Positions 9,597 through 28,878 of a stretch of 64,000 nt of DNA are shown one piece after another. Below the pieces are notes generated by a model. The model did no database searches, was not told the DNA's origin, and saw nothing but the letters and a program-made list of their open reading frames with translations. Source of the stretch: Rhodocyclales bacterium (GTDB taxonomy: Bacteria > Pseudomonadota > Gammaproteobacteria > Burkholderiales > Rhodocyclaceae); contig JAQGMF010000010.1 in the NCBI GenBank assembly GCA_028292505.1, forward strand, positions 248,001 through 312,000, read 5' to 3'. A program made the position numbers and the translations under genes. Positions within the stretch are counted from its first letter, which is position 1. The number at the start of each line of letters is the position of its first letter.

Positions 9597-10123
9597 GACC
9601 CGACCCCGAAATATTTTTTTGATTGCGCAAATTTTTGCGCACCCAGCACTGAACCGATTTAGCAGCGAGAGCCAATAGCTGCCGCGCAAAGCCGCCTAGG
9701 AACCAAGGCACAAACGCGAACAATTCCCCCAAAGCACTTCCACTTATAACGTCGTCATATGCATGTTGCGACAGGCAAGATTAGACGAAAGCGGATATTC
9801 AAGTCAAACCATTCTCGCTGAAGATATGCCAAATAATTCCTATCTTTCGACGCCCATATTCGAGATTGGCGTTTATGTTGTTTTTGACGATTTTTTGTAG
9901 ACATCTGGCATTTTTATTTTGAAGACTGTCCTTCCTCGCAAACTTCTCAGCGCTCCCAAACTGTGACGAATGCCCGAAAACCGGTAACACTGGCAACAAT
10001 AGCGCGAACTCCTTCTGTAAGCTCTCGGGTTAAAACAGGGAATTACTTTGGAGTTACTTGCCGCAGAAATTTGCTTTTGTCATACGGAAGCCGTTCAACC
10101 CATTGAACAACCAGATATCAAAT
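9597..10123. other. AT-rich divergent intergenic region
   Basis: This 527 bp gap separates the minus-strand giant gene from the plus-strand secretion operon. Positions 9780-10060 are clearly richer in A/T than the flanking genes. Divergent promoters for both operons must lie here, but no promoter pair stands out enough to call. A 66-codon minus-strand frame at 9799-9999 shows no protein-like features. Confidence 0.6.
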
Positions 10124-11785: not shown

Positions 11786-13485
11786 ATGCGCCGTACCTTG
11801 CCGCCGCGCAGCTGCAGCCCGGCTCACTACCTAAACTCGACTTGCTAGCGCTCGAGGCGCTGCGCGCTGAAGCACTGCGCACCAAGCAAAGTGTGGTTGA
11901 TGTCATCGTCGCGCGCCATGGCGAAACGGGTCTCGAAGCGCTCGGCAGTTTGCTGCGCATGCGCACGGTAGATGTGCATAGCTTGCTGAGCTGGGCGCCT
12001 GCGCTCGACGTGCTGCACTTCGAAGAATGTCTGCGCCATGAATGTCTGGCCGTGCGAGATGCCAATGGCATTTTATTTGCCGTCGTCGCCGACCCTTTCA
12101 ATGCACAGCTGGCTGACTGGCTGGGCCATTGCATTCAGAGCCCGTTCAGGATGGCCCTAACGAGTCGTGATGCGCTGACCGCCGCGCATGCGCGCATCGA
12201 AGAAAGCCAACAAATGGTCAGCGGCATGCAGGGAGGCGATTCACGAGCCTTCAGCAGCGAAGGGCGCGACCAGGCCGAGGACATCTCGGCGCGGCGCATC
12301 AGCGAGGACGACAGCCCGGTCGTCAAGCTGGTGAATTCCACGCTCTATGAGTCGCTGCGCCAGAGTGCCTCCGATATCCATATTGAATCCGTGGCCGGTG
12401 GTTTGCACATCAAGTACCGCATCGACGGTGTGCTCTCGCGTGTCGGCAGCGTGCAGGGCAGCGAAGTCGCCGAGCAAGTGATCTCGCGTATCAAGGTGCT
12501 CGCCGAACTCGATATCGCCGAGCGCCGCGTGCCGCAGGATGGGCGCTTCAAGGCCAACGCCAATGGCCGCGAAGTGGACTTCCGCGTCTCCATCATGCCC
12601 AGCATCTTCGGCGAGGACGCCGTGCTGCGCGTGCTCGACAAAGAGCACCTAACCGAAGAGATGAGTGGACTGACGCTCGCCACGCTGGGCTTTGATGATG
12701 CGACGCGCGCGCAGATTCGCCGCCTTGCCAATGAACCGTATGGCATGTTGCTGGTCACCGGCCCGACGGGTAGCGGCAAGACGACGACGCTCTACGCGAC
12801 CATCGGTGAAACGAATACGGGACTCGAGAAGATCGTCACCATCGAAGATCCTGTCGAGTATCAATTGCCGGGCGTGCTGCAGATACCCGTCAACGAGAAG
12901 AAAGGCCTGACTTTTGCGCGCGGCCTGCGCTCGATCTTGCGGCATGACCCGGACAAGATCATGGTCGGTGAAATCCGCGACAGCGACACGGCCGAGATCG
13001 CCGTGCAGGCGGCGCTGACCGGCCACCTCGTGTTCACCACCGTACATGCCAATAACGTATTCGATGTCATCGGCCGCTTCGTGCACATGGGCATCGATCC
13101 GTACAACCTGGTGGCCGCGCTCAACGTCGTCATCGCGCAGCGCTTGCTACGTGTCAATTGCACGCATTGCCGCAGGGACGACAAACCCGCTCAAGCCTTG
13201 CTCGACGAATCGGCCCTTATCGACACCACGGGTTTCACCTTCAAACATGGCACGGGTTGCACGCATTGCCGTGGCAGCGGCTACCGTGGCCGTCGGGCAA
13301 TTGCAGAAGTGCTGCCGCTCGATGATGAATTGCGCGAACTCATCACCGAACGTGCACCACTGCGTGCGCTCAAGGAAGCCGCGCTGAAGAAGGGCTTCAG
13401 GCCTTTGCGCGCGGCAGGCATGGCACTGGTTGCGGCGGGCGATACCACCTTACAGGAGCTCAATCGTGTTACGTTCATCGCATAA
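11782..13485 (+). CDS. gspE: T2SS assembly ATPase GspE
   Basis: This cytoplasmic hexameric ATPase powers pseudopilus assembly. The 567-residue protein has an N-terminal T2SSE_N-like region, a Walker A motif GPTGSGKTT near residue 328, Asp and His boxes (VTIEDPVEYQL; GLRSILRHDPD, EIRDSDTAEIA), and a zinc-binding CxxC...CxxC module (CTHC near residues 460 and 493) as in GspE/PilB. Translation starts at GTG 11782, overlapping the gspF stop. Its own 3' end overlaps the next gene by 20 nt. Confidence 0.96.
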   Translation: MNAPYLAAAQLQPGSLPKLDLLALEALRAEALRTKQSVVDVIVARHGETGLEALGSLLRMRTVDVHSLLSWAPALDVLHFEECLRHECLAVRDANGILFAVVADPFNAQLADWLGHCIQSPFRMALTSRDALTAAHARIEESQQMVSGMQGGDSRAFSSEGRDQAEDISARRISEDDSPVVKLVNSTLYESLRQSASDIHIESVAGGLHIKYRIDGVLSRVGSVQGSEVAEQVISRIKVLAELDIAERRVPQDGRFKANANGREVDFRVSIMPSIFGEDAVLRVLDKEHLTEEMSGLTLATLGFDDATRAQIRRLANEPYGMLLVTGPTGSGKTTTLYATIGETNTGLEKIVTIEDPVEYQLPGVLQIPVNEKKGLTFARGLRSILRHDPDKIMVGEIRDSDTAEIAVQAALTGHLVFTTVHANNVFDVIGRFVHMGIDPYNLVAALNVVIAQRLLRVNCTHCRRDDKPAQALLDESALIDTTGFTFKHGTGCTHCRGSGYRGRRAIAEVLPLDDELRELITERAPLRALKEAALKKGFRPLRAAGMALVAAGDTTLQELNRVTFIA

Positions 13486-14266
13486 AGTGCTCACCTTGCG
13501 ACTCGGCACGAACGGCTACGCGGTGTCGCAGAGTAATGTGCGCGGCACATGGCAGAACTGGCCCGCCGCCGAACATGACGGAAACATACACAAATCGATC
13601 GAAGAACGCCTGGCTGCGCTTAAGCTCAACATCGCGTCCTGCGCGCTGCTCGACGTCGTGCTCGATAGCACGCTGACACGCGTGCAGGTGATCCGTTTCC
13701 CGGCAGGCGTGAGAAAGCCCGCTGAACGCACAGCCTTCCTCAAGGCCGCTTTCCGCAATGTGTTCGGGCGCGACGCCAACACCTGGCATGTTATCGCTGA
13801 ACCGACCTATGTGAATCAGCCCACACCAGCAGTCGCCATCGATGACAAGCTCATGCAGGCCATCAACACTTTGGCGGAGCGTCACCGGCTCAAGCTGCTC
13901 AGCCTGCGTACCGCCTTCACCGACGCCTTCAACAGCGCACGTCGTAACTTCTCGGCGCATATGGGCGCCTTCGCTCTGCTGGAGAATGGCCGCGTCAGTA
14001 TCGGGCTGTGGCGACATCGCAGCTGGATTGCCTTGAGCACGCAGGCGCTTACTGCGGCCGATGGCGAAGGCCTGGCGGCGCTCTGCGCGCAAATGCTCTC
14101 GCGCATCGACCCGCCCATGCTGACTGGCACGCTCTACATTGCCGGGGCGGACAAGCCCTTCGCCGTGAATTTGAGCGAAGGCTGGACAACGCAATGGCTG
14201 CAAACCGAAGGTGATGCTTTGTCATGCAGATTCCCCGCGCGAAAGCCGCCTGAGATGCCCTCTTGA
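13466..14266 (+). CDS. PilM/GspL-position assembly protein (hypothetical)
   Basis: This 266-residue protein has no membrane segment and no motif I can assign firmly. The GTG at 13466 was chosen because a CAGGAG ribosome site lies about 6 nt upstream and because it overlaps gspE by only 20 nt. It sits directly before PilN-, PilO- and PilP-like genes, where the cytoplasmic actin-like PilM (or the GspL cytoplasmic domain, or MshI) is expected. The pattern of alternating beta strands and helices is compatible with such a fold, but this is inferred from position. Confidence 0.7.
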   Translation: MLRSSHKVLTLRLGTNGYAVSQSNVRGTWQNWPAAEHDGNIHKSIEERLAALKLNIASCALLDVVLDSTLTRVQVIRFPAGVRKPAERTAFLKAAFRNVFGRDANTWHVIAEPTYVNQPTPAVAIDDKLMQAINTLAERHRLKLLSLRTAFTDAFNSARRNFSAHMGAFALLENGRVSIGLWRHRSWIALSTQALTAADGEGLAALCAQMLSRIDPPMLTGTLYIAGADKPFAVNLSEGWTTQWLQTEGDALSCRFPARKPPEMPS

Positions 14267-14267
14267 A

Positions 14268-14834
14268 ATGCTCAACTCCTTGACCGCTTTCCGCTCCGCT
14301 CCGCCACCGTTCACGCTGGACTTCATCCCGCGCCGTCGTCGCCCCTCCTTGCTCGGCTGGTTGATCTTGTGTGCGGGCGTGCTGATGTGCGCCGCAGTCG
14401 TCCTTGAGTATTTCGATGCGCAGGAACGCCTCGACGACGCGCAACAAAACGTGGCGCGGGCGCAGCGTCTGCAGCAACACGCCAGTGGCGCACAGCAAGT
14501 GCACAAAACGGAACGCCTGCCAGAGGCTGAGCTGCGCCGTGCCGCTCGCCTCGCGGCCAGCCTGCAAGGCCCCTGGCTGCAGCTCATGCCGCAGCTCGAA
14601 GCCGCAGGAAATGCCGATATCGCGCTGCTCTCTCTCGATGCCGATACGGCCAAGGCACAAATCAACGTGACAGGCGAAGCTCGCTCGCTCGAAGCAGTGT
14701 TTGCGTATGCGCAGCGCATAGGAGCGCAGCCAGGCTTTATCAGCGTACAGGTGCAAAACTACGAGTTTCATCACAGCGGCTCGCAAGACCTCGTACAGTT
14801 CAAGCTCAGCGCGCGTTGGCAAGGCGCGTCGTGA
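14268..14834 (+). CDS. PilN-like bitopic assembly protein
   Basis: This 188-residue protein begins with LDFIPRRRRPSLLGW, typical of the cytoplasmic tail of PilN-like proteins. One transmembrane helix follows (about residues 24-44), then a coiled-coil-like Gln/Ala-rich stretch and a small periplasmic domain. The start ATG is 1 nt past the preceding stop, and its stop overlaps the next gene's GTG start by 4 nt. It probably forms the inner-membrane alignment complex with the two following proteins. Family assignment rests on topology and gene order, since sequence identity in this family is weak. Confidence 0.72.
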   Translation: MLNSLTAFRSAPPPFTLDFIPRRRRPSLLGWLILCAGVLMCAAVVLEYFDAQERLDDAQQNVARAQRLQQHASGAQQVHKTERLPEAELRRAARLAASLQGPWLQLMPQLEAAGNADIALLSLDADTAKAQINVTGEARSLEAVFAYAQRIGAQPGFISVQVQNYEFHHSGSQDLVQFKLSARWQGAS

Positions 14835-15412
14835 CAAAGACATCCATGCGCCAGCAGCGCTTGACCGCCACATGGCAGATGCTCAGCGCAAGCCTGCTGC
14901 GCACCGCGCATCAGACGGGCTGGCCAGCTCTGATCGGCAGCGCGCTCCTTATCGCTTCGTTGAGCCTCGCTCTCAGCGTCACGGCGCCACTGCGCGAGCA
15001 GATTGCGGCTGTCGAGCAGCAAAGCCATCAGCTCCGTACGACGAGCCAAGCGAAAGTGCTGCCTCCTATTTCGCCGCAAGCACGTCTGCGCGATTTCTAC
15101 GCCGCCTTTCCGCCACGCAGCGCACTGCCCGAGGTACTGATCCAGGTGCATCGCTCGGCAAGCCGCAATGGCCTGCAAGATACGCACGCGGACTATCGCG
15201 ATACGCCGGAGGCGGACACGCCGCTAGTGCGCGTGCGCATTGAGCTGCCGGTGACGGGCAGCTACGCAGCGCTTCGCGCCTGGATCGCCGAATTGCTTGG
15301 CGAATTGCCCGCGCTCACGCTCGAGGGCCTGGAGTTGCGCCGCACCGATATCGGCAAGGCGCAGCTCGATGCACGCGTACGCTTCCAGCTGCTGTTGCGG
15401 AGCGCGCCATAA
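14831..15412 (+). CDS. PilO/GspM-like bitopic assembly protein
   Basis: This 193-residue protein has one transmembrane helix (about residues 27-48), a coiled-coil segment (LREQIAAVEQQSHQLRT) and a ferredoxin-like periplasmic domain ending RVRFQLLLR, the layout of PilO/GspM. The GTG start at 14831 overlaps the previous stop (GTGA), and its TAA overlaps the next ATG (TAATG). Tight coupling implies stoichiometric production with its PilN- and PilP-like neighbours. Confidence 0.72.
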   Translation: MTKTSMRQQRLTATWQMLSASLLRTAHQTGWPALIGSALLIASLSLALSVTAPLREQIAAVEQQSHQLRTTSQAKVLPPISPQARLRDFYAAFPPRSALPEVLIQVHRSASRNGLQDTHADYRDTPEADTPLVRVRIELPVTGSYAALRAWIAELLGELPALTLEGLELRRTDIGKAQLDARVRFQLLLRSAP

Positions 15413-15975
15413 TGGGTACCTTACGCAAGTACTGGATCTGGCTGGCACTGGTGCTGGTCGGGCTCGCCAGCTGGTGGGTCAGCGGCCTGGACGACGAGAC
15501 GCCTGATAAGCATGTCGGCCAGTCCACGCGCAATGCTACGGCCACGCGCAAGTTGGGCGCCAGCGTGCAGCGCGACCCGGCCGAGGCCCTGGCCATGATC
15601 GCCAAAGCCTTCGCGCCACGCCAGAGCATAGCCAAACTGCATACCGATCCTTTCATCGTCGTTAGCTTCGAACCGCCGCCCCCGCCACCGCCTGCTCCCC
15701 CCAAGCCGACTGCGCCACCGCTGAATTTCAAGTATCTCGGTGTGTTGAACGAGGACCAGGAGTTGCGCAAAGGAGCTGGAGAAATCAGGACAGGGGAAAG
15801 CACGGGTCAGGGCGCAGGGCGCGCCGTGTTTCTCGATAGCGGCGGACAGATGCTGATCGCCCACAAGGGAGACACGCTCATCGGGCAATACAAAGTCCTC
15901 GAGATCAACGACACGAACATGCAATTGGAATATTTGCCGCTCGCCGAGCGACAAACCCTGAATTTCGGACGCTGA
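15412..15975 (+). CDS. PilP/GspC-like periplasmic linker protein
   Basis: This 187-residue protein has an N-terminal membrane anchor (residues 7-24), then a proline-rich spacer with seven consecutive prolines near residue 90. The C-terminal beta domain (LNFKYLGVLNED, AVFLDSGGQMLIAHKGDTL, YKVLEINDT) resembles the homology region of PilP/GspC that docks on the secretin N0 domain. Its position directly before the secretin fits this role. Confidence is good for the fold class and lower for the exact family. Confidence 0.75.
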   Translation: MGTLRKYWIWLALVLVGLASWWVSGLDDETPDKHVGQSTRNATATRKLGASVQRDPAEALAMIAKAFAPRQSIAKLHTDPFIVVSFEPPPPPPPAPPKPTAPPLNFKYLGVLNEDQELRKGAGEIRTGESTGQGAGRAVFLDSGGQMLIAHKGDTLIGQYKVLEINDTNMQLEYLPLAERQTLNFGR

Positions 15976-15994: not shown

Positions 15995-18274
15995 ATGAAC
16001 GCACGATATTTTAGCGATACCCCTCTGCAACACGGCACGGCCAGAGGCGCCTTCATTCTGCTTGTCTGCATGCTTACGGCATGTGCAGGCACCAGCATCG
16101 AAGAGAGTCGTCAGCTGGCCGCCAATGGTCAGCCGGAAGCTGCTCTGACCTTGTTGTCCGAAGCGATGAAAAAGGATCCGTCCGACAAGGCCGTACGCGT
16201 GAGCTACTTTCGCATGCGCGACCAACTCGTCAGCCAGGCCCTCAACGCAGGCGATCGTGCCCGCATGTCCGGCAATTCAGACGAAGCGGCGCAACAAATC
16301 AATCTGGCGCAACGACTCGATCCAACCAATCAGCGTGCCCGCGACATGCTACGCGCGCTCTCTGCCGACAAGCAGCGTGCGCAGCGATTACAAGAAGCCG
16401 AAAATCTCCTGAATAAGAAACAGTTCGCGGAAGCGGAGATCATCGCACGCGCGTTGTTGGCAGAGAGCCCGAATAGTGCGGCGGTGCGCGGCTTGTTACG
16501 CCGTCTGGATGAAGCGCAGAACAGCGCGCTGAGCGAGAGCCCGGTCCTCAAGAGCAGTTTCGTCAAACCGATCACACTGGAGTTTCGCGACACGCCACTG
16601 CGCAGCGTCTTCGAAGCGATTTCGCGCACGGCGGGCATTAATTTTGTCTTCGACAAGGACGTCAGGACTGACACCAAGGTCACTGTCTTCGTGCGCAATA
16701 CCAACATCGATGAGGTGGTGCGCATGGTGCTGACCACCAACGGGCTAGAGCGCAAGATGCTCAACGACAATTCGATGCTCATCTATCCGGCAACACCGGC
16801 CAAACAGCATGACTACCAGGAACTGGTAACGCGTACTTTTTACCTCACCAATACGGACGCCAAACAAGCACAGGCCCTCATCAAAACGGTCGTCAAAACA
16901 CGCGATACCTTCATCGACGAGAAGATCAACATGCTGATCATCAAGGACACGCCTGATGCCATTCGCATGGCTGAACGTCTTATTCAGCAATTGGATATCG
17001 CTGATCCGGAAGTCATGCTGGACGTAGAGGTGCTGGAGGTGTTGCGCTCACGCCTGCTCAATCTTGGATTCCAATTTCCCGATCAAATCGGGTTGGGTCT
17101 CTTGCAACCAACGACACAATCGGTCGTCACGACAACGACCGGTACGACACAATCCACCAATCTGGGCGGTCAGCTTCAGCAGGGTAACATCAACCTGCGC
17201 GGCACCGGTGCGCTTGTGCCGTACGTCTCGAACCCCGGCCTTCTGCTCAATCTGCAGGATCAGGATGGTGACAGCAACATCCTGGCCAACCCACGTATCC
17301 GTGTGCGCAATCGAGAGAAAGCCAAGATTCACATTGGTGACAAGCTTCCTGTTTTTACGACAACATCAACGGCCAATGTGGGCGTTTCAGCGTCTGTCAA
17401 TTATCTGGAAGTAGGTCTGAAGCTCGATGTCGAGCCCGTCATTCACCTTGATGACGACGTCGAGATCAAGGTGGGTCTGGAAGTGTCGAGCGTTACCAAG
17501 GAAGTCACCGGACCGCAGGGCTCGCTCGCTTACCAGATCGGCACGCGTAATGCCGACACGGTGCTGCGCTTGCGTGACGGTGAAACACAGGTGCTGGCGG
17601 GTCTTATTTCCGATGAGGAGCGAAGCAGTGCCTCGCACCTGCCGGGCATCGGTCGCGTTCCGATACTCGGACATCTTTTCTCGAACAACAATGACAGCAA
17701 TACGAAGACCGAAATCATCCTGCTGATTACACCGCACGTGGTGCGCAATATCATCCCCACCAGTATCTCCCGATCCAGCATGCCCGCCGGTACCGACACC
17801 AACGTAGGTGCCACCCCTATGCGTGTGACATTGCTGACGCTTGCCACGTCGTTAGAGACCCGAGGCGACGCTACGGGCACCACCACGGCACCTCTTGCCC
17901 CACCTCCTCTGCCGTCAGTGCCAAACAACGGCGGCGTCGCGGCGCTGACCTTGGCCGGCCCGACCCGCCTGACTCCGGGGCAGGAATTCTCGGTTACCGT
18001 GAATGCTTCGTCAGACAGCGCCATCCGCAACGCTGAGGTAACGCTAAGCTGGGACGGCGCGTTGTTCGAGGCCGTAAGTGGCGGCAGCGGAAACAGCATG
18101 GCGATCAATCTTGCCCCAGCAGGCAACGCTGCGACGGCACAATTGCGCTTGCGTGCCAAGATCGGCGCAAATGGCGATGGCTTGATAGAAGTGTCTGGCT
18201 CACGCATCAGCGGCAGTACAGACGAAATTGCGGCCAGCAATCCTCAAGCGCTCGTCATCACAGTCGCCAAGTAA
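15995..18274 (+). CDS. gspD: Lipoprotein secretin (GspD/MshL-like) with N-terminal TPR-like repeats and C-terminal cohesin-like domain
   Basis: This is the outer-membrane channel of the secretion operon. The 759-residue precursor has a lipobox LTAC with lipidated Cys30. Residues 35-175 form TPR-like helices (GQPEAALTLLSEAMKKDPSDKAVR). Residues 183-355 carry the STN/N-domains (ITLEFRDTPLRSVFEAISRT), and about 400-585 the secretin barrel (ANPRIRVRNREKAKIHIGDK, VLAGLISDEE, IILLITPHVVR). After a Pro/Thr linker, residues 650-759 resemble a cohesin domain (LTPGQEFSVTVNAS, AEVTLSWDGALFEAV). Canonical GspD lacks both the TPRs and the cohesin. The next gene's ATG overlaps its TAA stop. Confidence 0.9.
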   Translation: MNARYFSDTPLQHGTARGAFILLVCMLTACAGTSIEESRQLAANGQPEAALTLLSEAMKKDPSDKAVRVSYFRMRDQLVSQALNAGDRARMSGNSDEAAQQINLAQRLDPTNQRARDMLRALSADKQRAQRLQEAENLLNKKQFAEAEIIARALLAESPNSAAVRGLLRRLDEAQNSALSESPVLKSSFVKPITLEFRDTPLRSVFEAISRTAGINFVFDKDVRTDTKVTVFVRNTNIDEVVRMVLTTNGLERKMLNDNSMLIYPATPAKQHDYQELVTRTFYLTNTDAKQAQALIKTVVKTRDTFIDEKINMLIIKDTPDAIRMAERLIQQLDIADPEVMLDVEVLEVLRSRLLNLGFQFPDQIGLGLLQPTTQSVVTTTTGTTQSTNLGGQLQQGNINLRGTGALVPYVSNPGLLLNLQDQDGDSNILANPRIRVRNREKAKIHIGDKLPVFTTTSTANVGVSASVNYLEVGLKLDVEPVIHLDDDVEIKVGLEVSSVTKEVTGPQGSLAYQIGTRNADTVLRLRDGETQVLAGLISDEERSSASHLPGIGRVPILGHLFSNNNDSNTKTEIILLITPHVVRNIIPTSISRSSMPAGTDTNVGATPMRVTLLTLATSLETRGDATGTTTAPLAPPPLPSVPNNGGVAALTLAGPTRLTPGQEFSVTVNASSDSAIRNAEVTLSWDGALFEAVSGGSGNSMAINLAPAGNAATAQLRLRAKIGANGDGLIEVSGSRISGSTDEIAASNPQALVITVAK

Positions 18275-18756
18275 TGATGAAACGTGGTCACAAGGCGGGC
18301 TTTACGTTGATCGAGATGGTGATCGTGGTAGCGATCGTCGGCATACTCGCCACGGCAGCTTATCCGGTAGCCAGTCTCGTTGCCCGCCGCTCGCGCGAGT
18401 CCGAGCTACGTATCGCGCTGCGCCAAATTCGCGAGGCGATTGACGCCTACAAGCAGGCGACGCTGAACAAGCGCGTCGAAAAACCGCTCGATGCATCAGG
18501 CTACCCGCCCACACTGGACGCGTTGGCTGAAGGGGTGGTTGATGTCAGCACGCCCGACGCCAAAAAAATCTACTTCCTGCGCCGCGTTCCGCGCGACCCG
18601 ACGAACCCAAACGCTGCACTGCCTGCCGCCGAGACGTGGGGAAAACGCAGCTACGCCAGCCCACCCGATTCGCCGCAGGAAGGCGACGACGTATTCGACG
18701 TGTATTCGCTGTCGGACAAGACCGGGCTCAACAATGTGCCCTATCGGGAGTGGTAA
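18274..18756 (+). CDS. Pseudopilin with type II prepilin leader
   Basis: This 160-residue protein has leader MMKRGHKAG|FTLIEMVIVVAIVGIL, with Glu at +5 and a long N-terminal helix. The rest is GspG/GspH-like, with an R-V-P-R-DPTNP motif and an acidic EGDDVFDVYS segment near the C-terminus. Its start overlaps the secretin stop. It is likely a minor pseudopilin of the tip or shaft. Which of GspH/I/J/K it replaces cannot be told. Confidence 0.88.
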   Translation: MMKRGHKAGFTLIEMVIVVAIVGILATAAYPVASLVARRSRESELRIALRQIREAIDAYKQATLNKRVEKPLDASGYPPTLDALAEGVVDVSTPDAKKIYFLRRVPRDPTNPNAALPAAETWGKRSYASPPDSPQEGDDVFDVYSLSDKTGLNNVPYREW

Positions 18757-18758
18757 GC

Positions 18759-19130
18759 ATGCGTCGCGCGCGCGGCTTTACGCTCATCGAACTCCTGGTG
18801 GTGATGGCCATCATCGGCGTGCTGCTGTCGATCGCGGCACCGCGCTACTTCAATCACATCGAACACGCACGCGACAACGCATTACGCCAGAGTCTTGCCG
18901 TCATGCGCGATGCCATTGACAAGTTTCATGCCGATACCGATAGCTATCCGGCGTCGCTTGAAGACCTCGTCGCCAAGAAATATCTGCGTAGCATTCCCGA
19001 AGATCCACACACAGGCAGCAGGGACAGCTGGGCAGTGGAGGCGCCACCCGATGGCGGCACGGGTGTATTCGATGTGCATAGTGGCGCCAACGGCAATACC
19101 ACCGATGGCGCACCGCTGGCGGAACAGTGA
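18759..19130 (+). CDS. Pseudopilin, short GspG-like
   Basis: This 123-residue protein has leader MRRARG|FTLIELLVVMAIIGVLL, with Glu at +5, then a short globular part containing the IPEDPHTGSRDSW segment and the GVFDVHSGA ending typical of GspG-like proteins. The ATG at 18759 lies 2 nt after the preceding stop. An in-frame upstream start inside that gene was rejected because it would bury the leader. Confidence 0.88.
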   Translation: MRRARGFTLIELLVVMAIIGVLLSIAAPRYFNHIEHARDNALRQSLAVMRDAIDKFHADTDSYPASLEDLVAKKYLRSIPEDPHTGSRDSWAVEAPPDGGTGVFDVHSGANGNTTDGAPLAEQ

Positions 19131-19131
19131 G

Positions 19132-19662
19132 ATGTTGATTCGCGACCACCAACCGAAGGGACGCTACGCGCAAGGCTTCGCTTATCTATTCCTGCTATTC
19201 GCCATGGTGGTGATCGGGCTGCTACTCGCCGCCTTCGGTCAGAACTGGAGCACTACGACCCAACGCGAACGCGAGGCCGAGTTGCTCTTCATTGGGCAAC
19301 AATTCAGCGCGGCGCTTACCAGCTATCGCAAGCAGACGCCGGCAGGACGGCCCGACAAACCCGCAACGCTACAGGAGCTCGTCGAGGATGATCGCTTTCC
19401 TTTTCCGGTGCGGCACCTGCGCCAGATTTTTAGGGATCCGATGACGGGCAAACGCGACTGGGATGTGCAACTGGCCAACGGGCGCATCGTCAGCATTCGC
19501 AGTCGTTCGGAAAAGCGGGCGTTGCGGCACACGCTGCCCGTTTACATAAGCATTTCGGCCGACACCAAAGAATCTCCTACCTATCACGACTGGCAGTTCG
19601 TGGCTCCACAGGATCAGCCCGGCAACGGCGCTGTCGCGGCACCCGGCGCACAAGCGAACTGA
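19132..19662 (+). CDS. Atypical pseudopilin without the +5 glutamate
   Basis: This 176-residue protein starts 1 nt after the preceding stop. The N-terminus KGRYAQGFAYLFLLFAMVVI resembles a prepilin leader with G|F cleavage, but position +5 is Phe rather than Glu. The mature N-terminus is a hydrophobic helix followed by a long amphipathic helix (REREAELLFIGQQF). The C-terminal domain includes a DPMTGKRDW motif shared with other pseudopilins. Missing Glu5 is a trait of tip pseudopilins such as GspK, so it may cap the pseudopilus. It is the last gene of the operon. Confidence 0.8.
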   Translation: MLIRDHQPKGRYAQGFAYLFLLFAMVVIGLLLAAFGQNWSTTTQREREAELLFIGQQFSAALTSYRKQTPAGRPDKPATLQELVEDDRFPFPVRHLRQIFRDPMTGKRDWDVQLANGRIVSIRSRSEKRALRHTLPVYISISADTKESPTYHDWQFVAPQDQPGNGAVAAPGAQAN

Positions 19663-19721
19663 TCCGCTATTCGGAGCGTCTGGCCGAGACTGCGGCTTCA
19701 GTTTAATGCGGTGTGCAAGCG

Positions 19722-21341
19722 CTAACCCATCGATGAAAGATCGGACCGAGCAGACTCGCGGGGCTCTGTCTGAGAAAGAAAAGCATTAAGCGTAAGAACA
19801 GCTTGCCGAATACGCACGACAGATGCTCTCTGAACATCTGGTGAAAGCGCTATGCTGTGCGCACTTGCATCGTTTCGTAGCGCCTCTTCAACGTCAATGT
19901 CGGCCACCCCGCATCTGTGCATCTCAAAAACCTCGGCACTGATAGGCCAAACGCATAGCATCAATAGAGAGTTTGAGGCCGTGAATTGCAGCGCGAACAA
20001 TTTGTCCGCCACCATCGCGGACAACAGTGTTGCATCATTCCTAACAGCGGTCCGTACCAACACAACCTCGGCACAAATCGCGCGACTAATGAGCAAGGCG
20101 AAGTTTCTAGGTAGCCAGTCTTGCCATAGCTCTCCAGACTCAGCCCCTATGCCTTCATCATCTTCCGTCAGATCGATGGCGGACGGCGCCGTCCCACCAC
20201 CCCATTTGCCGACACTCCTCTCGCGGCTCTCTATTTTTTCTGTATAGGAATCTGAAGCCGCTTGCCGGACGCCAAGTGACCACACGGGTTTGTTGATCAA
20301 GTCAGGAAACTTGCTTCGCGCCTTGATTTTCCACTGCGGCGTGGACTTGCTTGTCTTTGGGTCTTCCTCCTGAAATACCGACAAATCCGTTTTGAGTATC
20401 TTCTTTTTCCTTTCCGTTTTGGATGGCTGACTCTCGGGTATTGTCGTGCCCACTTCGGTGCTGACCTTGTACCGCAAAGCCTTGAACGGAAAAGGATGGT
20501 CGCACGACAGTATTTGGTGAACAACGAACCGATAGCGTTCAATGCCTTCCCCTGCCAGCCAGCGCCCCCGCATCAGCAACCGCGTATCGCCTCGAAACGG
20601 AAACCGCATGCGTGGAAAAACTCGCCGCCTCAAAGCGCCATCAATAGCGAGCGATTTCCAGAGCTCCGCCACCGCGGAAGTTGCGTGCGCATCAAAGGCA
20701 ATGCGCGCAATATCTTCCGCACTGGCGGATGGTAGATCAGGCGCCAACTGCACAAATGCTTGCTTCGTCAGATCGTGAATGTAGGGCTTAGAGTAAAGCG
20801 ATGAAGCATCGCAAGGCACGCTGAACAGCCTTGATAGCAACCGACTTGAAGACCCAAAGTAAAAGCGCACAAGCTCAGTGCAAGGAATGATGAGCCGCGA
20901 ACAATCGTCGATAGCCACGGAACAGCAATACGTCTCCGTATCGTGCCGGTGAAAGCTGTATTGATCGAAGGGTAGGTTGTAGCTGATGCCTGCATTTTCG
21001 GAGGTTGTCTCATCAGGCAAGCCTGCTTTGATGAGGCGCACCGAATCATCGATCGAGACCTTGCATTCGAAAAGCTCGTCGTCGCCTTCAAAGACCGGTT
21101 CGGTCTTTTCCCATACGGAGCCGAGCGTCATTTGAGAAAGGTAGCCAATGGGTGCCAACCGCCGTATGACATGGCCTGTGTTAACTTTCCCCTTGTCGCC
21201 AAACGGCGAAAATGCCAATTCAATATTGGGCCCGCTATATCTAGTGGCTGTGCCGCCGTAGGACAGCGGCCCATACCAGCCGAGCCGATACATCCCGTTT
21301 GGAAGGTTCAGAAACGCAAAACGTGCGCGCGCAGAAGTCAT
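19722..21341 (-). CDS. Transposon accessory protein of unknown function (TniE-position)
   Basis: This 539-residue protein is the last gene of the transposition operon, and its start overlaps the tniQ stop by 4 nt. I recognise no domain with certainty. It has a mostly globular N-terminal 300 residues, a Lys/Ser/Glu-rich hydrophilic linker at about 315-400, and a C-terminal alpha-beta region. It occupies the place of the fifth gene (tniE) in Tn6022-like elements, whose function is unknown. A role in target choice or in partnering TniQ is a guess from operon structure alone. Confidence 0.7.
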   Translation of the reverse strand: MTSARARFAFLNLPNGMYRLGWYGPLSYGGTATRYSGPNIELAFSPFGDKGKVNTGHVIRRLAPIGYLSQMTLGSVWEKTEPVFEGDDELFECKVSIDDSVRLIKAGLPDETTSENAGISYNLPFDQYSFHRHDTETYCCSVAIDDCSRLIIPCTELVRFYFGSSSRLLSRLFSVPCDASSLYSKPYIHDLTKQAFVQLAPDLPSASAEDIARIAFDAHATSAVAELWKSLAIDGALRRRVFPRMRFPFRGDTRLLMRGRWLAGEGIERYRFVVHQILSCDHPFPFKALRYKVSTEVGTTIPESQPSKTERKKKILKTDLSVFQEEDPKTSKSTPQWKIKARSKFPDLINKPVWSLGVRQAASDSYTEKIESRERSVGKWGGGTAPSAIDLTEDDEGIGAESGELWQDWLPRNFALLISRAICAEVVLVRTAVRNDATLLSAMVADKLFALQFTASNSLLMLCVWPISAEVFEMHRCGVADIDVEEALRNDASAHSIALSPDVQRASVVRIRQAVLTLNAFLSQTEPRESARSDLSSMG

Positions 21342-22555
21342 GACGCTAAGCCGCGGTCGGTATGGGGAGGTGTTTTGCGATGCGGCCCTCTAGGATTCCA
21401 CGAGCGCCCCGTAACATGAAGCGAATCATTTGCCACGAGCGGACGAAAAGCAACTCCCAGCATCCGGTTGATCTCGTTGTTAGTAGGATTTATCCTGCGT
21501 TTTTCCAAGTAGGCGCGTACGGCTTCACGTTCATCATCGTTCGGAGAATAGAAGCGATCATATAGGTGCCACTGCAACTCGCGAGCAAGCCAGTAAGGCA
21601 GATTCTCCCCATAGCCTTTAAGATATGAACTCGCAACGCGGGCGGTTTTGCACCCCTCTATAAAGTCGTTAGGCCAATTGTTAAGGAGCATTGAGAGCAG
21701 GAGAAGTGACTCGGCCCGATCGCCAACTCGCATATTCTCGAACTTCGATTTTCCGTTTCGATATCGTATGCCAAGTGCCAATCTTCCATCGCCATTTAGT
21801 AGGTGATAGCGAAGACGAGCTGAACGGCCTGTTGAGGTGAGAACTCCAACAAGTCTTCGTAGCCCATGAAATGACAGCAGCGCGTACAAGGCCCCGCCAG
21901 GCAGTTCTAGGCTGAATCCTTGCTCTGCAGCTGTCATCAGTAAAGTTTGGAATCGCATCAGCTCATCCGGCACGGGCGAAACCTGCTCTTCGACCCGCGT
22001 TCGGGGCTGCGAACACCGTCGACACCTCAACATGCCGTCTTCACGCCCGCTCGCTTGCTTTCTAAAATCAGATTCGTGAAATGAGATCGGTGCATCACAA
22101 CATGGACAGCCGTCAAGAAGCCAACAAGCATGCTCAAGGCATACCACGTTGAAGGCCAGTCGCCAGTGCTTCCTGAAATAGGGTACGGGATCGTCGGCAA
22201 GACACTTCCAGCAGTACTGTTGGCCACGACCACGACGTGCGCGACCGTTGTTCTCCGCTTGCAAGACCCATTTGGTCACACCTACGGAGTGAGCCTTCTC
22301 GAAAACAATTCCTTCGTATGACGACAACGATGTTTGCGCAAGCCGCGGTGGTTCCACGCCGGTCAACTCTGCAAGCGAATGAAGTTCGCGCGGGTCGATT
22401 GTGAGGTCGGGGTCCTGATCCCAAAAATTAACCTTCCTCGGGAAAAGTCGTTTCGCAAACGGATGGACCTTGGAGATGTTTGCAGAAGCAAGCCGTACCA
22501 GCCATGACGAAAACAATTCGTCAGGCAACGGCTTGGGCCTCAGCAGCAGCTTCAT
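21338..22555 (-). CDS. tniQ: TniQ/TnsD-family target-selection protein
   Basis: This 405-residue protein has the N-terminal TniQ motif PLPDELFSSWLVRLA and a zinc-binding block (CWKC, then HWRLAFNVVCLEHACWLLDGCPCC), followed by a CRRC pair. TniQ/TnsD proteins read the attachment site and recruit the AAA+ regulator. Given the insertion in comM, this protein probably recognises a conserved comM sequence. The gene ends 4 nt inside the next one and starts directly at the tniB stop. Confidence 0.9.
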   Translation of the reverse strand: MKLLLRPKPLPDELFSSWLVRLASANISKVHPFAKRLFPRKVNFWDQDPDLTIDPRELHSLAELTGVEPPRLAQTSLSSYEGIVFEKAHSVGVTKWVLQAENNGRARRGRGQQYCWKCLADDPVPYFRKHWRLAFNVVCLEHACWLLDGCPCCDAPISFHESDFRKQASGREDGMLRCRRCSQPRTRVEEQVSPVPDELMRFQTLLMTAAEQGFSLELPGGALYALLSFHGLRRLVGVLTSTGRSARLRYHLLNGDGRLALGIRYRNGKSKFENMRVGDRAESLLLLSMLLNNWPNDFIEGCKTARVASSYLKGYGENLPYWLARELQWHLYDRFYSPNDDEREAVRAYLEKRRINPTNNEINRMLGVAFRPLVANDSLHVTGRSWNPRGPHRKTPPHTDRGLAS

Positions 22556-23467
22556 TTAAATCCCCGCCGCATACCGTGGCCGATCAGACGGCCTGATCCA
22601 GCCAATAGCTTTGAGTGCCTCAGGCGTGAGGTCGTCAGGATCAATGATCTCTTTGCTTCCAATGGCTCGTTGTGCCAGCCTGCACAGCAAGTCCACCATC
22701 TCTCCAATCAAACCTTCGCTTGCATGGATTATTCTGCGCAGCGTCTTTTTATTCGTGAAGTCACAAGACTCAAGAAGCCCCAAGCTGGACTCCATCCCTT
22801 GGAATAGCCCCGCACACAGATCGAGGTTTTCCCACACTGGAAGGTCCATCGGTTTGAAGCGATTCGTCAATTGTGGATCGGACGCCAGTGCGGCGAGGCA
22901 TTCCGGTACACCGGCAATTACGATCGGAACGCGTAGCCTGTTACCGAGGTTCTTTAGCCCGTTCAGGAAAGCCTTCTGCCGATTCCCCGACCCTGCCAAT
23001 GCATTGGAGAACTCATCGAGCACCAGCATTCGGATGTCCAATCTGTCGAACAACAACGCAATCCGATCGATCTGAGACTCTACGTGCTCTCTTCGAGGCC
23101 CAGGTGAGAAAAGCGCACGCAGTACATTGTCATACAGCCGCCACTCGTCCGGCTGCGCAGGTGTCGATATTCTGAGGATGGGCAAATGCGTCGCTTCTTC
23201 TGTAGGCACGTCCGTCTTTGTGTGCATGCCAACGAAGTGGGTCAAGAGCGTCGATTTGCCATTGTTCGTCTTACCGATGATGGCAAGATTGGGCATACGT
23301 TCAACCTTCGGATGCTTCAGCAGCGCATTCAATGTCTCAAGAATTTGCTGTGCTCTAGGGTAGTCCAGCCAAGCGTCGGTAAAGGCGTGACAGAGGTTAG
23401 TCCTTCTGGTTTCAATCGATGCATCGGCAGGCGAAACAAACGGCGTTGTGATCTCTTCGACTATCAT
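22556..23467 (-). CDS. tniB: AAA+ transposition regulator TniB/TnsC
   Basis: This 303-residue ATPase shows Walker A GKTNNGKST near residue 65 and Walker B MLVLDEFSN. The length and RLRVPIVIAGVPECLAAL motif fit the TniB branch of TnsC-like regulators, which form DNA filaments linking the target-site protein to the transposase. Its ATG overlaps the tnsB stop by 4 nt, so expression is coupled. Confidence 0.93.
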   Translation of the reverse strand: MIVEEITTPFVSPADASIETRRTNLCHAFTDAWLDYPRAQQILETLNALLKHPKVERMPNLAIIGKTNNGKSTLLTHFVGMHTKTDVPTEEATHLPILRISTPAQPDEWRLYDNVLRALFSPGPRREHVESQIDRIALLFDRLDIRMLVLDEFSNALAGSGNRQKAFLNGLKNLGNRLRVPIVIAGVPECLAALASDPQLTNRFKPMDLPVWENLDLCAGLFQGMESSLGLLESCDFTNKKTLRRIIHASEGLIGEMVDLLCRLAQRAIGSKEIIDPDDLTPEALKAIGWIRPSDRPRYAAGI

Positions 23468-25401
23468 GATCGGCGACCTCCGCCAAGCTTGGTCATAGCA
23501 AAGATCGGTATCTTGCTCGCATCGATGTAATCGTCATCGTCGTCTTCCTCTTTCGCCTTGACTGATGGCGGGAGCGGAACTGCGCGGTTCTTCTGGGATG
23601 CCACGGACTTCGTACGTTGACGATTGCGTTCCCGTTCTTTGGCAAGCGCGCGAGTAGCCCCTACAGCGTTTTCTTCAATGCGCTTCATATGGTTGAGCGC
23701 GTTGAAAATCATGTCTTCGTCTATATTCTTTCGCCCTTCCTTTTCGAGATGGCGCCTGACTGCCGCCAGTTCCCAAAGCGAAATGGAGGGATGCGCAATA
23801 TTTTTGTAGTGAATGGGAAAGTACTTCTGCAGATCGGGGTCGTAGAACATAATCGTACTTATGTCGCGCGGATCGCGGCGGACGATGAACTTCCGTCCGT
23901 AGCGTTTCATGCCTGGTTCTTTTGCACCGATCCATCGCGTCAGAACGCCAGACTGGTACTGAATCTTGTCCCATTCGATGCCATCGGCCCGTACCGTGCG
24001 CTCTTCGTAGGGCAAGAAATCGATACGTAACCGCTCCGGGTCCGTTGCGATCGGTATGGCGCCTATGCCCGGCGCGTCATCAGTACCCCGGATGGAGTCG
24101 ATGTATTTCTTGATGGGCGAACATCCTAATTCCGAATGAATATTATTGTGGTATTCGCCGAGGATACGATGTGCTAGCCACTCGTCCAGCTCTTCCAACG
24201 TTAGTGCCGCTTTTGCGGCCGAGTCATAGTCTTCCTTGTCGCGCGGATTCGAAAACGTCGTACCGGGAAGAGCGTGAATGGCAGCCATGAGCGTGCCGAG
24301 GTAACGCTCGATATGAGCACCGTATTGCGGCTTCTTCAGTTTGCGGAACTGGATGTCAATGCCATGCTCTTGGCAAGCCATTTTCAGGGCGTGACCGCGA
24401 AACTCACGGGCATTGTCGAGATGAACGATCCCCGGCTTGCCTTGGCAGGGCCATTTATAGCTGAGGCCATATTTCGCCAGCAGGTTGTCCTTCGGCAGCA
24501 CCGCATTTGCAATACAGATACCTGTGCCAAGTGTGCCGGGCGGGTCAAGTGACAAAAACCACCCAACAACCATTCGGGAATAAACATCGATGGCAACCGT
24601 CAACCAAGGCCGGTCGATCGCTATGCGATGCACGCTATCGACCACTTCCAGATCAACTCGCGTGTGGTCGATCTGAATCAGCGCCATGGCGGTATTGAGA
24701 TCCCCGAAGGCTCCGGTTATCGGCTCCAAGCGACTTGCTTTGTGGCGCTCCTCACGACGCCGCGCTCGCTCCTCTGGGGCGAAACGTTCGATACGTTGAA
24801 CAAAGGTGACATAGCTGATGAGAGGAAGCTTTTCGTTGTTGCAACGCCGCTTCAGTTCCTTGTATGCGTGCGCAGGGCTTTTCTTCTGACCGGTGAGGTA
24901 TTCGCTGACGATCACATCGTAGATGACCGCTTCAACGTCCTCGGTAGTGCGTATCTTTCCGGCATCCGATCTTCGCGCTCGCATGAAGCATGTGATCGTG
25001 CCGTTCTTCTGAAATTTATCCACCCATCGATACAGACTGGCAGTTCCAAACCCACCTTGCACGGCTAGCTCATTTGCATATTGCCGTCTGCCTTCGATCG
25101 GATGTTTTAGGAGCTTGGCAACGTAATCGTATTTCTCAACTGCATCCTCCCATGCATCGGGATCGATGGATGCCAAGTCGAGCCGGACTTCCTGTTTGGC
25201 GCTACTGCTCGTGATATCGGCAAAGGAAACAACTTCATCGATGCTCGTGAGCAGATTCCTCGCAAGTACCGAGTCAGCACTCTCAAAGCGCCTAACGCAA
25301 AACGGGGTCTCCCCACGTTTTACGATGGCTCCCGGTGCAATCAGGAGCGTTATGTTTGATGCCTGTGGTTTACTGGATTGAGGATTGGTTCGAGAGGCCA
25401 T
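23464..25401 (-). CDS. tnsB: DDE transposase TnsB/TniA-like
   Basis: This is the transposase that cuts and joins 3' ends. The 645 residues contain N-terminal helix-turn-helix DNA-binding regions (NELAVQGGFGTASLYRWVDK) and an rve/RNase-H core with the DDE residues in LIQIDHTRVD, GIVHLDNAREF and GAHIERYLGTL. Mu-C-like beta sequence follows, then a Lys/Glu/Asp-rich tail that probably contacts TniB. The ATG at 25401 was preferred to one at 25470 because it reduces the overlap with tnsA to about 50 bp. The start is not certain. Confidence 0.93.
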   Translation of the reverse strand: MASRTNPQSSKPQASNITLLIAPGAIVKRGETPFCVRRFESADSVLARNLLTSIDEVVSFADITSSSAKQEVRLDLASIDPDAWEDAVEKYDYVAKLLKHPIEGRRQYANELAVQGGFGTASLYRWVDKFQKNGTITCFMRARRSDAGKIRTTEDVEAVIYDVIVSEYLTGQKKSPAHAYKELKRRCNNEKLPLISYVTFVQRIERFAPEERARRREERHKASRLEPITGAFGDLNTAMALIQIDHTRVDLEVVDSVHRIAIDRPWLTVAIDVYSRMVVGWFLSLDPPGTLGTGICIANAVLPKDNLLAKYGLSYKWPCQGKPGIVHLDNAREFRGHALKMACQEHGIDIQFRKLKKPQYGAHIERYLGTLMAAIHALPGTTFSNPRDKEDYDSAAKAALTLEELDEWLAHRILGEYHNNIHSELGCSPIKKYIDSIRGTDDAPGIGAIPIATDPERLRIDFLPYEERTVRADGIEWDKIQYQSGVLTRWIGAKEPGMKRYGRKFIVRRDPRDISTIMFYDPDLQKYFPIHYKNIAHPSISLWELAAVRRHLEKEGRKNIDEDMIFNALNHMKRIEENAVGATRALAKERERNRQRTKSVASQKNRAVPLPPSVKAKEEDDDDDYIDASKIPIFAMTKLGGGRRS

Positions 25402-26123
25402 ATCGAGACCGCCATGGTAAGGGGAACCGTCATATCGACCTGTACGCAACCCTCGCCAACCAATTGCCACAGCCAGGGCACAGTTTCGGCCTGCCTTTGT
25501 GGATTGTCGCTAAGCGAGTTCAGAAGCTCTCTGGGAGTCGTTGTACCCAGTCGCTCAAGGGCATGCAGGATCGCCTTTTTGGTTTCACACGCGGTCGGTT
25601 CGCTGCCGCCAATACAGACAGAACGGAACCGCCGAAGGAACTGAATGTTTTTCAGTTCTGGAACACGGATTCTGGCTTCGGTGACCACACGAAAGCGCAG
25701 ATCGAATTGCTTGCACCAGCATATGGCGGCAATCCATTTCGGCTTTAGCTTTTTCCAATCGCGCCGGATGATGCTCGCTGGTTTCACTTCAAACACGGTG
25801 TGTCGAAGGTGTGGTTCGGCAGCCAATGCCTTGCGGGAATACTTTACTAGGACATCTGGCGTGTAGGGCTCTACCCGACCTCTTGGACTCACCCACGGGA
25901 GTGAAAACGGTTGAGTGGCAACTCGCTCTACGCGAAAGTCATATTCCAGAAGGTGAAGAAAGTCTCTCTCAAGGAGAGACTCGGCATCTTGCGCTTGTTC
26001 GGCCTTTGCGGTGGAGATACGGCCGGGAGAACTGAAGGCGGACGGGCCCACTTTGCGGCGAATGTTTTCCAGGCCGCCGAGCAGCTCGCTGATCCATTCC
26101 TCGTCACGGTTGAGGGTCGCCAT
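25350..26123 (-). CDS. tnsA: TnsA-like heteromeric transposase endonuclease subunit
   Basis: This 257-residue protein has the PD-(D/E)xK-type core of TnsA: RDFLHLLEYD, then YTPDVLVKYS and VFEVKPA, followed by a C-terminal winged-helix region. TnsA nicks the 5' ends so that the element moves by cut-and-paste. It is the first gene of the transposition operon. Genes of the two cargo-like proteins diverge from it to the right. Confidence 0.9.
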   Translation of the reverse strand: MATLNRDEEWISELLGGLENIRRKVGPSAFSSPGRISTAKAEQAQDAESLLERDFLHLLEYDFRVERVATQPFSLPWVSPRGRVEPYTPDVLVKYSRKALAAEPHLRHTVFEVKPASIIRRDWKKLKPKWIAAICWCKQFDLRFRVVTEARIRVPELKNIQFLRRFRSVCIGGSEPTACETKKAILHALERLGTTTPRELLNSLSDNPQRQAETVPWLWQLVGEGCVQVDMTVPLTMAVSIWPLEPILNPVNHRHQT

Positions 26124-26489: not shown

Positions 26490-27059
26490 ATGACCAACAT
26501 ATTCAGCCACAAATTGTTTGAGATATTTTTTGAAAAAGGACTGATCGCTCTTCTTATCCTCCTTGCAAGCAGCCAAGTGAATTTATCTTTGGAACGATAC
26601 AAACTGGTCGAGACGCAACGCGTAGCCGGGACAACTGAATTTGTCAGTGCTTGCCAAGAAATTTGGTCGAAAGTCTATGAATACGAAGCGGCGGTAAATG
26701 CAGAAACAAGCGCTACCGTGAATCGCCTTCATCTCAGAATTGCCGGTGCAAAAATGCAGAATGCCGATGATCTGGAAGTGGCCGACCTGAAGAGCAAAGA
26801 AGAGAAGAAGATAAAAGAAATTGAACAACTCGTTGGCGAGCAAAAGTTCGTCATTGGTCAGCAATTCTCCGATCACTTTTTTAAGTACCTTGGCCTTGTT
26901 CGGGCGCGCGCTGATGCAGAGAAGACTGCGTGGGAAAAAAGCGGCGAGGAGGCTAAGATTTCACGCGATGCGGGTGAGGTTTTTGACAAACAGATAGCTT
27001 CTATGCGATTCACCTCTGATATGGCGCGGGAGTACGCGATAGCTCAATTGCCGCACTGA
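26490..27059 (+). CDS. Small membrane-anchored coiled-coil protein, unknown function
   Basis: This 189-residue protein has one N-terminal membrane helix (FFEKGLIALLILLASSQVNL) and then a long, highly charged helical region (KSKEEKKIKEIEQLVGEQK) with coiled-coil character. No family is recognised. It lies between tnsA and the right transposon end, so it is probably cargo. Its lower GC and its codon use differ from the secretion operon, consistent with transfer. The ribosome site is weak. Confidence 0.6.
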   Translation: MTNIFSHKLFEIFFEKGLIALLILLASSQVNLSLERYKLVETQRVAGTTEFVSACQEIWSKVYEYEAAVNAETSATVNRLHLRIAGAKMQNADDLEVADLKSKEEKKIKEIEQLVGEQKFVIGQQFSDHFFKYLGLVRARADAEKTAWEKSGEEAKISRDAGEVFDKQIASMRFTSDMAREYAIAQLPH

Positions 27060-27334
27060 CAAATTCTGGCGGAACCGTTGAGGACTTCCACCGCTTCGAG
27101 GCTCCTCGGATCAGAACCGTCTGCAGCGAATCTGCTAACGTGTTTTCCTTCCAGAGCCTCTTGCAAATCCACCTTCGATGCGCAAGAATTCGCACCGAGG
27201 CTCATGGCAGGAGCCTGCTATCCGTCATTGCAAAGCTGCTGGCAGCGCTGCTCCAAATGGCTTCCCATTTTGGTTGTGTTCGGCTTGAACAGCGGTAGAC
27301 GGATGACGTTGGTATTCGGGCCAGGAGCACATCA

Positions 27335-28678: not shown

Positions 28679-28683
28679 CCTCA

Positions 28684-28710
28684 TACGGTGGCGGCTATCC
28701 GGCCACCGTA
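28684..28710. terminator. Hairpin after DUF5623-like gene, possible terminator
   Basis: Arms 28684-28692 and 28702-28710 pair perfectly over 9 bp, and a further GG/CC pair can form in the loop. It begins 5 bp after the preceding stop codon. Only a TTTT about 8 nt downstream follows, so as an intrinsic terminator it is weak. Confidence 0.45.
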
Positions 28711-28829
28711 AGATGCGCTTTTGCGTTGAATGACGTTGTGCGGCGCCGAGAGGTATCGGGATTCTTCCGACGATTTTGTGCGAAGAAAGTTGTTCATGGC
28801 GGCACTCACGGGCCTCGGCCGCGATTCCG

Positions 28830-28878
28830 GTCTCAAATTCTGTTTTCAAGAGTCTCATTTAGCTATTTATGTGAGACA
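28830..28878. repeat. Right transposon end with GTCTCA repeats
   Basis: Two direct GTCTCA copies start at 28830 and 28852, 22 bp apart, followed by an inverted TGAGAC at 28872-28877 and the terminal A at 28878. Read inward, the end begins TGTCTCACAT, matching the TGT...ACA rule for Tn7-like ends. The 22 bp spacing suits TnsB-binding sites, but the inverted orientation of the outer copy is unlike Tn7. The predicted 5-bp target duplication would be 28879-28883. Confidence 0.55.

Follow-up and report, generated by a model that had tools for sequence, protein, structure and literature searches.

A Tn7-like transposon in comM of a Rhodocyclales bacterium lies directly after codon 76 and carries a type II secretion-type operon

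We analyzed a 64,000-bp stretch of a draft Rhodocyclales genome (assembly GCA_028292505.1, 57 contigs, completeness 92.7%), corresponding to positions 248001–312000 of contig JAQGMF010000010.1 (here C38; this stretch is called the window, and its base 1 is C38:248001). The first 28,876 bases of the window are almost certainly the right-hand part of a Tn7-like insertion at codon 76 of comM that carries a secretion block, and a 59-bp gap in it (19663–19721) is merely the meeting point of the last cargo gene and a tnsE-like gene. We observe both ends of the element, the target duplication, an empty site, the position of the cargo, and related elements that share the site and the orientation. In the scenario we favor, a 51,355-bp transposon would have moved into comM directly after codon 76, duplicating 5 bp and splitting the gene; it would have carried defence-like genes together with a 21.3-kb block that encodes a transglutaminase-type protein, a 2626-residue MG2/CarboxypepD protein, and the secretion operon.

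Results

Both Ends of the Element and Both Halves of comM Lie on One Contig

The element spans C38:225522–276876 and ends at window position 28876 (in-window part 1–28876), with its left end 22.5 kb outside the window edge. A ChlI-family search of the genome itself located two comM pieces on C38, on the same strand, matching ChlI positions 1–57 (C38:225354–225524) and 56–121 (C38:276879–277079). The comM 5′ half (C38:225294–225521) is found 51.4 kb upstream of the 3′ half on the same contig, and the 3′ part runs from codon 77 to the stop codon (window 28882–30150, + strand), as defined by the ChlI match and by reading the junction. The insertion point is directly after codon 76. Read from the contig, the left junction is GATTTACCAAAA followed by TCTCTCACTCAAATAATTATTTGAGACTTG, and the right junction is GAGTCTCATTTAGCTATTTATGTGAGA followed by CAAAAGAGAGCGG (in short form, ACCAAAA followed by TCTCTCAC on the left and GTGAGA followed by CAAAAGAG on the right). 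A 5-bp target duplication, CAAAA, flanks both ends (left copy C38:225517–225521; right copy, window 28877–28881). The two ends are similar and inverted; the sub-terminal repeat ATTTGAGACT has two copies at the left end and a single copy, with one mismatch, in the right end (window 28829–28876, from C38:276829, − strand). Taking out the element and one CAAAA restores the comM frame, which then reads LPKESGRF (ADLPK-ESGRFDLP in context).

LPKESGRF is unbroken in G013, another genome of the genus and a sibling species, in which codon 76 is uninterrupted; the first-pass annotation of the window had suggested a comparison with a related strain that lacks the element. We detected comM at E values of 1e-80 or better in 56 of 61 genomes searched. 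Among the matches listed (30, one of them this genome), all 29 other comM loci align across codon 76 unbroken, and comM of G001 is also contiguous there; G016, G017, and G300 have partial comM genes, interrupted at a more downstream position or by the end of a contig.

The first-pass annotation had correctly noted that the window lacks the 5′ piece of comM and had suggested a genome search for the first ∼80 codons; codons 1–76 are found on the same contig and strand. A second copy of the right-end sequence, which it had also proposed to look for, did not turn up, as window positions 28680–28920 match only themselves in the genome. It had left two explanations standing. According to the first, the left end, the cargo, and the comM start were lost in a deletion that joined internal transposon sequence to a secretion operon of the chromosome. 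The window by itself does show neither left end nor comM start, but C38 has everything in the right order and on the right strand: comM codons 1–76, a left end that matches, and another 22.5 kb of cargo. The linked left junction with its matching duplication refutes a deletion, which retains next to no probability. According to the second, the left end lies beyond the window and the secretion operon is cargo; the two ends, the duplication, and the restored frame establish that this alternative is right. An assembly artefact joining two unrelated stretches in C38 might be suspected in a draft of this kind, where the contig is known from the assembly without reads. We consider it highly improbable, as a misjoin would hardly yield two junctions with the same 5-bp sequence on both sides, inverted ends, and a restored frame, and related elements show the same comM junctions.

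Splitting by the element would inactivate comM. The reading frame of the 3′ half continues uninterrupted into the element's right end, forming a 509-residue ORF (window 28621–30150), so that a truncated ComM containing the ATPase domain could still be made.

A Convergent Gene Pair Accounts for the 59-bp Gap

In the ORF list the last secretion-operon ORF stops at 19662 (+ strand) and the facing ORF ends at 19722 (− strand), and 19663–19721 is therefore exactly the 59-bp space of two convergent genes, in agreement with the distance reported by the first-pass annotation. Its statement that the gap holds no left end is borne out as well. We searched 97 kb for ATTTGAGACT, allowing one mismatch, and found seven copies; the two element ends account for three, and 19663–19721 has none. 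Folding of 19655–19730 revealed no clear excess over shuffled sequences (z = −1.46, 13 of 200 shuffles at least as good), and the one terminator-like site detected in 19500–19900 maps to 19821–19804, outside the gap. The gap is ordinary spacing of convergent genes, the last cargo gene meeting the tnsE-like gene, and contains no element end. The premise that a left end should adjoin the last transposition gene does not hold in general: in the relatives examined, the tns operon is found near one end, with the cargo between it and the other end.

A Set of Tn7-like Transposition Genes

TnsA, TnsB, TnsC, and TniQ are encoded together, in an operon tnsA-tnsB-tnsC-tniQ-tnsE-like near the right end of the element, and with the 5-bp duplication and the sub-terminal repeats at both ends they are what is expected of a Tn7-like transposon. 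All five genes are on the − strand: the tnsA endonuclease (25350–26123; PF08722, PF08721), the tnsB/tniA transposase (23464–25470; PF09299, with an rve match below the Pfam cut-off; also placed in the TnsB tree described below), the tnsC/tniB ATPase (22556–23467; PF05621), tniQ (21338–22555, 405 amino acids; PF06527), whose product is the favored target selector, and a gene for a 539-residue protein (19722–21341), whose start codon overlaps the tniQ stop codon.

This last protein is most likely TnsE-like, although we do not regard the assignment as firm; it is based on the position of homologues and on weak profile and model matches. Homologues in loci L146 and L152 are found at the place described for Tn6022 TnsE, just inside the left end beside comM, and such a gene is located just inside the left end in all six relatives at codon 76 that have a linked left end (E values 7e-7 to 1e-42). 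A weak TnsE_C match (E = 0.0076) was returned for one of 19 aligned family members, whereas the window protein itself matched no profile model; it also had no match among plasmid records. The predicted model has a pLDDT of 64.9 as a whole. Its confident first half gives weak OB/PriB-like matches (Z-scores up to 5.5; for PriB, Z is 5.0 and r.m.s.d. is 3.3 comparing 80 residues), and a first fold search with the model returned nothing at E 0.001. TnsE has been described as having OB-fold/PriB likeness (PMC10293859). The left-end neighborhood thus differs between our element and the six relatives, in that the tnsE-like gene here is part of the tns operon, following tniQ with overlapping codons; in the related locus L168 it likewise follows tniQ.

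The Cargo Contains a Type II Secretion-type Operon

From the left end to the tns operon, the cargo consists of a recombinase-like gene, defence-like genes, several small ORFs, and then the 21.3-kb secretion block; two further cargo ORFs are located between tnsA and the right end (26490–28678, + strand; 189 amino acids, and 447 amino acids with a DUF5623 match). The defence-like part (C38:226773–245333; L007, L008) contains a DUF2326 gene with a PDC-M68B candidate-defence match, an HD-CE/ATPase gene adjoining an SMC-like gene with LmuB-like matches, and an AAA-metallophosphatase-PLD gene group.

The secretion block begins with two large genes on the − strand, which encode a 1089-residue transglutaminase-core protein (window 1–1676 and on to C38:246407 outside the window; PF01841) and a giant 2626-residue protein with CarboxypepD_reg repeats and an alpha-2-macroglobulin-like MG2 match (1809–9689). 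These are followed on the + strand by genes for a GspF-like protein (10601–11785; PF00482), a GspE-like ATPase (11782–13485; PF00437, MshEN), four small proteins (13430–15975; one resembling PilN and one resembling GspM/PilO, each narrowly missing the Pfam cut-off, and two without match), a GspD-type secretin with additional TPR and cohesin matches (15995–18274; cohesin below the Pfam cut-off), and pseudopilin-like proteins (18274–19662). Secretin, GspE ATPase, GspF, and pseudopilins, the components that we examined with Pfam, are thus encoded in one operon of type II secretion type. The N_methyl motif is found in the first two pseudopilin-like genes. For the last one (19132–19662) no Pfam match supports the earlier label of pseudopilin (E values up to 0.05); its N terminus looks prepilin-like only by eye, and its G013 homologue overlaps a weak GspG-type tblastn match. 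The 2626-residue protein may be a giant substrate of the secretion operon.

GspD homologues (E 1e-60 or better) occur in 124 of 297 genomes of the family, a count that includes related operon types, and the present genome contains two others (44% identity). The order gspF, gspE, gspD, pseudopilin is the same in most loci read, so that the operon shares its gene order with chromosomal type II secretion-type operons of the family and differs in being located inside a transposon. In a tree of 30 best-matching rows, the element GspD is sister to that of G013 with a support of 100 (75–76% identity), and GspE and GspF of the two genomes share 90% and 89% identity, respectively. The operon appears to have been picked up from the same bacterial lineage.

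In G013 the operon is contained in a 21.9-kb stretch (C3:5615–27476) between ssb and the next gene; in the present genome, ssb is joined directly to that next gene (C27:5887), that is, the site is empty. A third genome, G121, has the operon together with homologues of both large proteins (65% identity over the full length of the 2626-residue protein and 68% for the transglutaminase-core protein), and its operon stretch has no other DNA match to the G013 ssb region. The same operon is thus found in non-homologous places: beside ssb in G013, elsewhere in G121, and inside the element here. The ssb neighborhood does not show which state is ancestral or in which direction the operon moved, as ssb and its next gene are adjacent in none of 29 other loci examined (L269–L297; 40 of 41 genomes with matches). 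Beside its operon, G013 has a different 2481-residue ORF with a transglutaminase-like stretch (C3:15737–23182, 33% identity; L114, L115), indicating that the large neighbor gene varies.

Third-position G+C content is ∼0.65–0.75 in the secretion block and ∼0.41–0.60 in most other element genes (exceptions outside the block include g12, g13, and g20–g22). This difference, the sister relationship of GspD to that of the sibling species, and the presence of the whole block in G121 without a DNA match to the sibling ssb region could also be explained if the block were a later nested arrival, by homologous recombination or another mobile element, that never traveled with the transposon. We hold this to be a substantial possibility, somewhat below an even chance; against it, we noticed, short of a systematic search, no recombinase or repeat peculiar to the edges of the block. 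Under either reading, the block physically lies inside the two ends of the element.

Most Close Relatives Use the Same comM Site

A contig scan with TnsB alone had returned nothing, whereas a TnsB alignment used as query against named genomes identified 364 relatives, the best 80 of which we kept. In nine of these 80 (L167, L169–L173, L189, L191, and L195), the tnsA end faces a comM 3′ piece, the alignment of which begins at ComM residue 78–81. For 20 other loci of the best 80, the comM 3′ alignment begins at residue ∼270–281, the published region, and seven are inserted in comM in the opposite orientation, with the break at around residue 283–291. A tenth codon-76 relative was found in Undibacterium sp. 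TS12 (L225, ∼49.7 kb); it has no matches to the secretion operon. It does encode, beside tniQ, a transglutaminase-type protein with 51% identity to ours (L262; C1:609835–612963 of G691). The seven opposite-orientation elements (L190, L202, L204, L207, L208, L212, and L229), in which the tnsA end is toward the comM 5′ half, are mostly from marine bacteria by name.

The comM 5′ halves were found in nine of ten genomes searched, the exception being L167. Both junctions are on one contig in six relatives and in our element; in L171 and L189 the 5′ junction is on a different contig, and that of L169 was not resolved. In all seven elements with both junctions, a candidate 5-bp duplication (CAAAA, CCAAG, CAAGG in three cases, AAAGG or AAGGA, and AAGGT) lies at a distance of 0–6 nt from the shared codon. 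All seven are oriented alike, and in each the offsets on the two sides together give back exactly the length of comM. As 11 left and 18 right offsets were tried, a single match could be due to chance, and it is the constant offset difference that is convincing. In the Methylovorus, Roseateles, and G687 elements, the match of one end to the other is poor or ambiguous. We further observed that the comM 5′ piece of Roseateles puraquae is split again, at residue 32/33, by ∼13.6 kb (G689, C42:117818–131632; L255, L256). In G013, another Tn7-like element, of ∼46 kb (C20:216812–264409; L069–L071) and distinct from ours, splits comM at around residue 236; it has ends TGCCCATC and a CCGGC duplication.

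In a TnsB tree of 81 rows calculated with a quick method, all 11 codon-76 rows fall into a starred set of 13 with a support of 99. Among the 12 relatives that group with our element, ten are at comM codon 76; in L194 (Deefgea) the contig ends at the site after a comM 5′ half, which is consistent with such an insertion but not proof; and in L168 (Azonexus hydrophilus), whose TnsB is nearest to ours by path, comM is intact (open frame of 497 amino acids), so that codon 76 is not the target of every clade member. No insertion site was found for the L168 element. For this tree, L225 and L195 were labeled by hand, L206 and L224 (comM nearby, not at the tnsA end) were classed as comM_other, and 41 of the 81 rows as none_seen for comM, 39 of them outside the clade; one such row, L245, has a comM frame of only 317 amino acids. 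The 11 codon-76 rows span five named families, a Burkholderiales MAG, and MAGs labeled Bacillota and Deltaproteobacteria/Myxococcota.

Could codon 76 have been hit by chance, for instance in a TnsE-type event, rather than as a dedicated attachment site? The location of L168 outside comM and the diverse other sites occupied by Tn6022-type AbaR elements (PMC7253598) are in line with this notion. We nevertheless find it very unlikely, given 11 TnsB rows at codon 76, all with the tnsA end toward comM 3′, from five named families and three MAGs. One site and one orientation, in seven of seven elements with both junctions, is as expected for a dedicated Tn7-like attachment site, L168 being the exception.

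Candidates for the Target Selector

Codon 76 is ∼200 codons upstream of the published Tn6022/TnsF site. A TnsF profile, built on seven proteins from residue-280 elements, detected no homologue among the ORFs of our element (best score 4.9 bits; the profile may miss distant forms). None of the 11 codon-76 rows gave a match in the parts of elements fetched. As a control, the profile matched ten of 20 residue-280 loci (seven of which had built it), none of seven opposite-orientation loci, neither of the two comM_other rows, and two of 41 none_seen rows. With half of the residue-280 loci and all seven opposite-orientation loci lacking a match, absence at codon 76 carries little weight, and other selectors or distant TnsF forms may exist at those loci. 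The opposite-orientation elements also have no large ORF directly after tniQ. In L203 (12793–15735) and L234 (12754–14802), TniQ and TnsF are apparently fused in one open frame.

TniQ, with TnsABC and possibly with a partner protein, may select codon 76 by recognizing conserved comM coding DNA, a reading that we put at roughly even chances; the TnsF control lowered our estimate for it, and likewise for the TnsF-free clade discussed below. TniQ is 338–490 amino acids long in the clade ORFs read, and its predicted model is poor (mean pLDDT 53.5). In the Methylovorus locus L172 (12782–14477), only the first 80 tniQ residues match, followed by a Mutator-family transposase ORF; tniQ there looks interrupted, which counts against TniQ as the selector.

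A Xer-like protein is encoded 143 bp inside the left end (C38:225665–226648; L007:10665–11648, − strand). In an alignment with 11 Xer-like proteins, Arg I is replaced by Lys, and the Lys, His, and Tyr positions, which like Arg I we take to be catalytic, are lost. A catalytically dead protein of this kind could choose the site in the manner of TnsF, which has been described as an inactivated tyrosine recombinase targeting comM (PMC10293859). However, tblastn searches of the 80 TnsB loci, and of left-end pieces from relatives that share the site, detected no homologue, and no ORF of the element matches the TnsF profile, making this selector unlikely. Among 399 genomes of the order, the search returned 13 others, with weak Xer-like matches only. 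TniQ remains the selector that we favor.

Discussion

Our element resembles Tn6022/AbaR elements in encoding tnsA, tnsB, tnsC, a short TniQ, and a putative TnsE-like protein (PMC10293859; PMC11406308, Table 1; PMC7253598), and in being inserted in comM with the tnsA end toward the 3′ half, as in the 20 loci at residue ∼270–281. The published target region overlaps Walker B (PMC10293859). Here, the insertion follows codon 76 rather than lying near Walker B (residue ∼297 in this ComM), no TnsF (Orf3/TniE) was found after TniQ, as is also the case in ten of the 20 residue ∼270–281 loci, and the tnsE-like gene belongs to the tns operon, whereas theirs is near the left end. Tyrosine-recombinase transposons (Tsy) also insert in comM (PMC10293859), and our element shares with them the target and a recombinase-like gene. 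In contrast to Tsy, it has TnsABC, TniQ, inverted ends, and a 5-bp duplication, and the sole recombinase-like protein recognized by Pfam among its larger ORFs is catalytically degenerate, so that no active tyrosine recombinase pair is seen.

A large cargo region with defence-like genes is a trait shared with other Tn7-like elements, the median lengths of which are 14–29 kb, with the longest at 140 kb (PMC8649781), compared with 51 kb here. The word "secretion" does not occur in the main text of that study. In the literature searched, which was largely open-access, with few preprints and partly accessible text, we found neither a codon-76 comM site nor Tn7-like cargo with a type II secretion system mentioned. 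The insertion site is the result with the wider bearing, and the secretion operon the more unusual cargo.

At only slightly less than even chances, we envisage a separate Tn7-like clade, spread over several families, that would reach a second comM attachment site, codon 76, without TnsF, by means of TniQ and perhaps a further protein, and within which one element would mobilize a whole type II secretion-type operon and a possible giant substrate. ComM helps to recombine DNA taken up by transformation (PMC10293859), and Tn7-like lineages strike its gene at codon 76 here, at ∼236 in the sibling, at ∼270–281, and, in the opposite orientation, at ∼283–291. With several defined sites, one gene allows a direct comparison of target choice by TniQ with and without TnsF. 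As cargo, a secretion operon would widen the range of what such elements are known to move.
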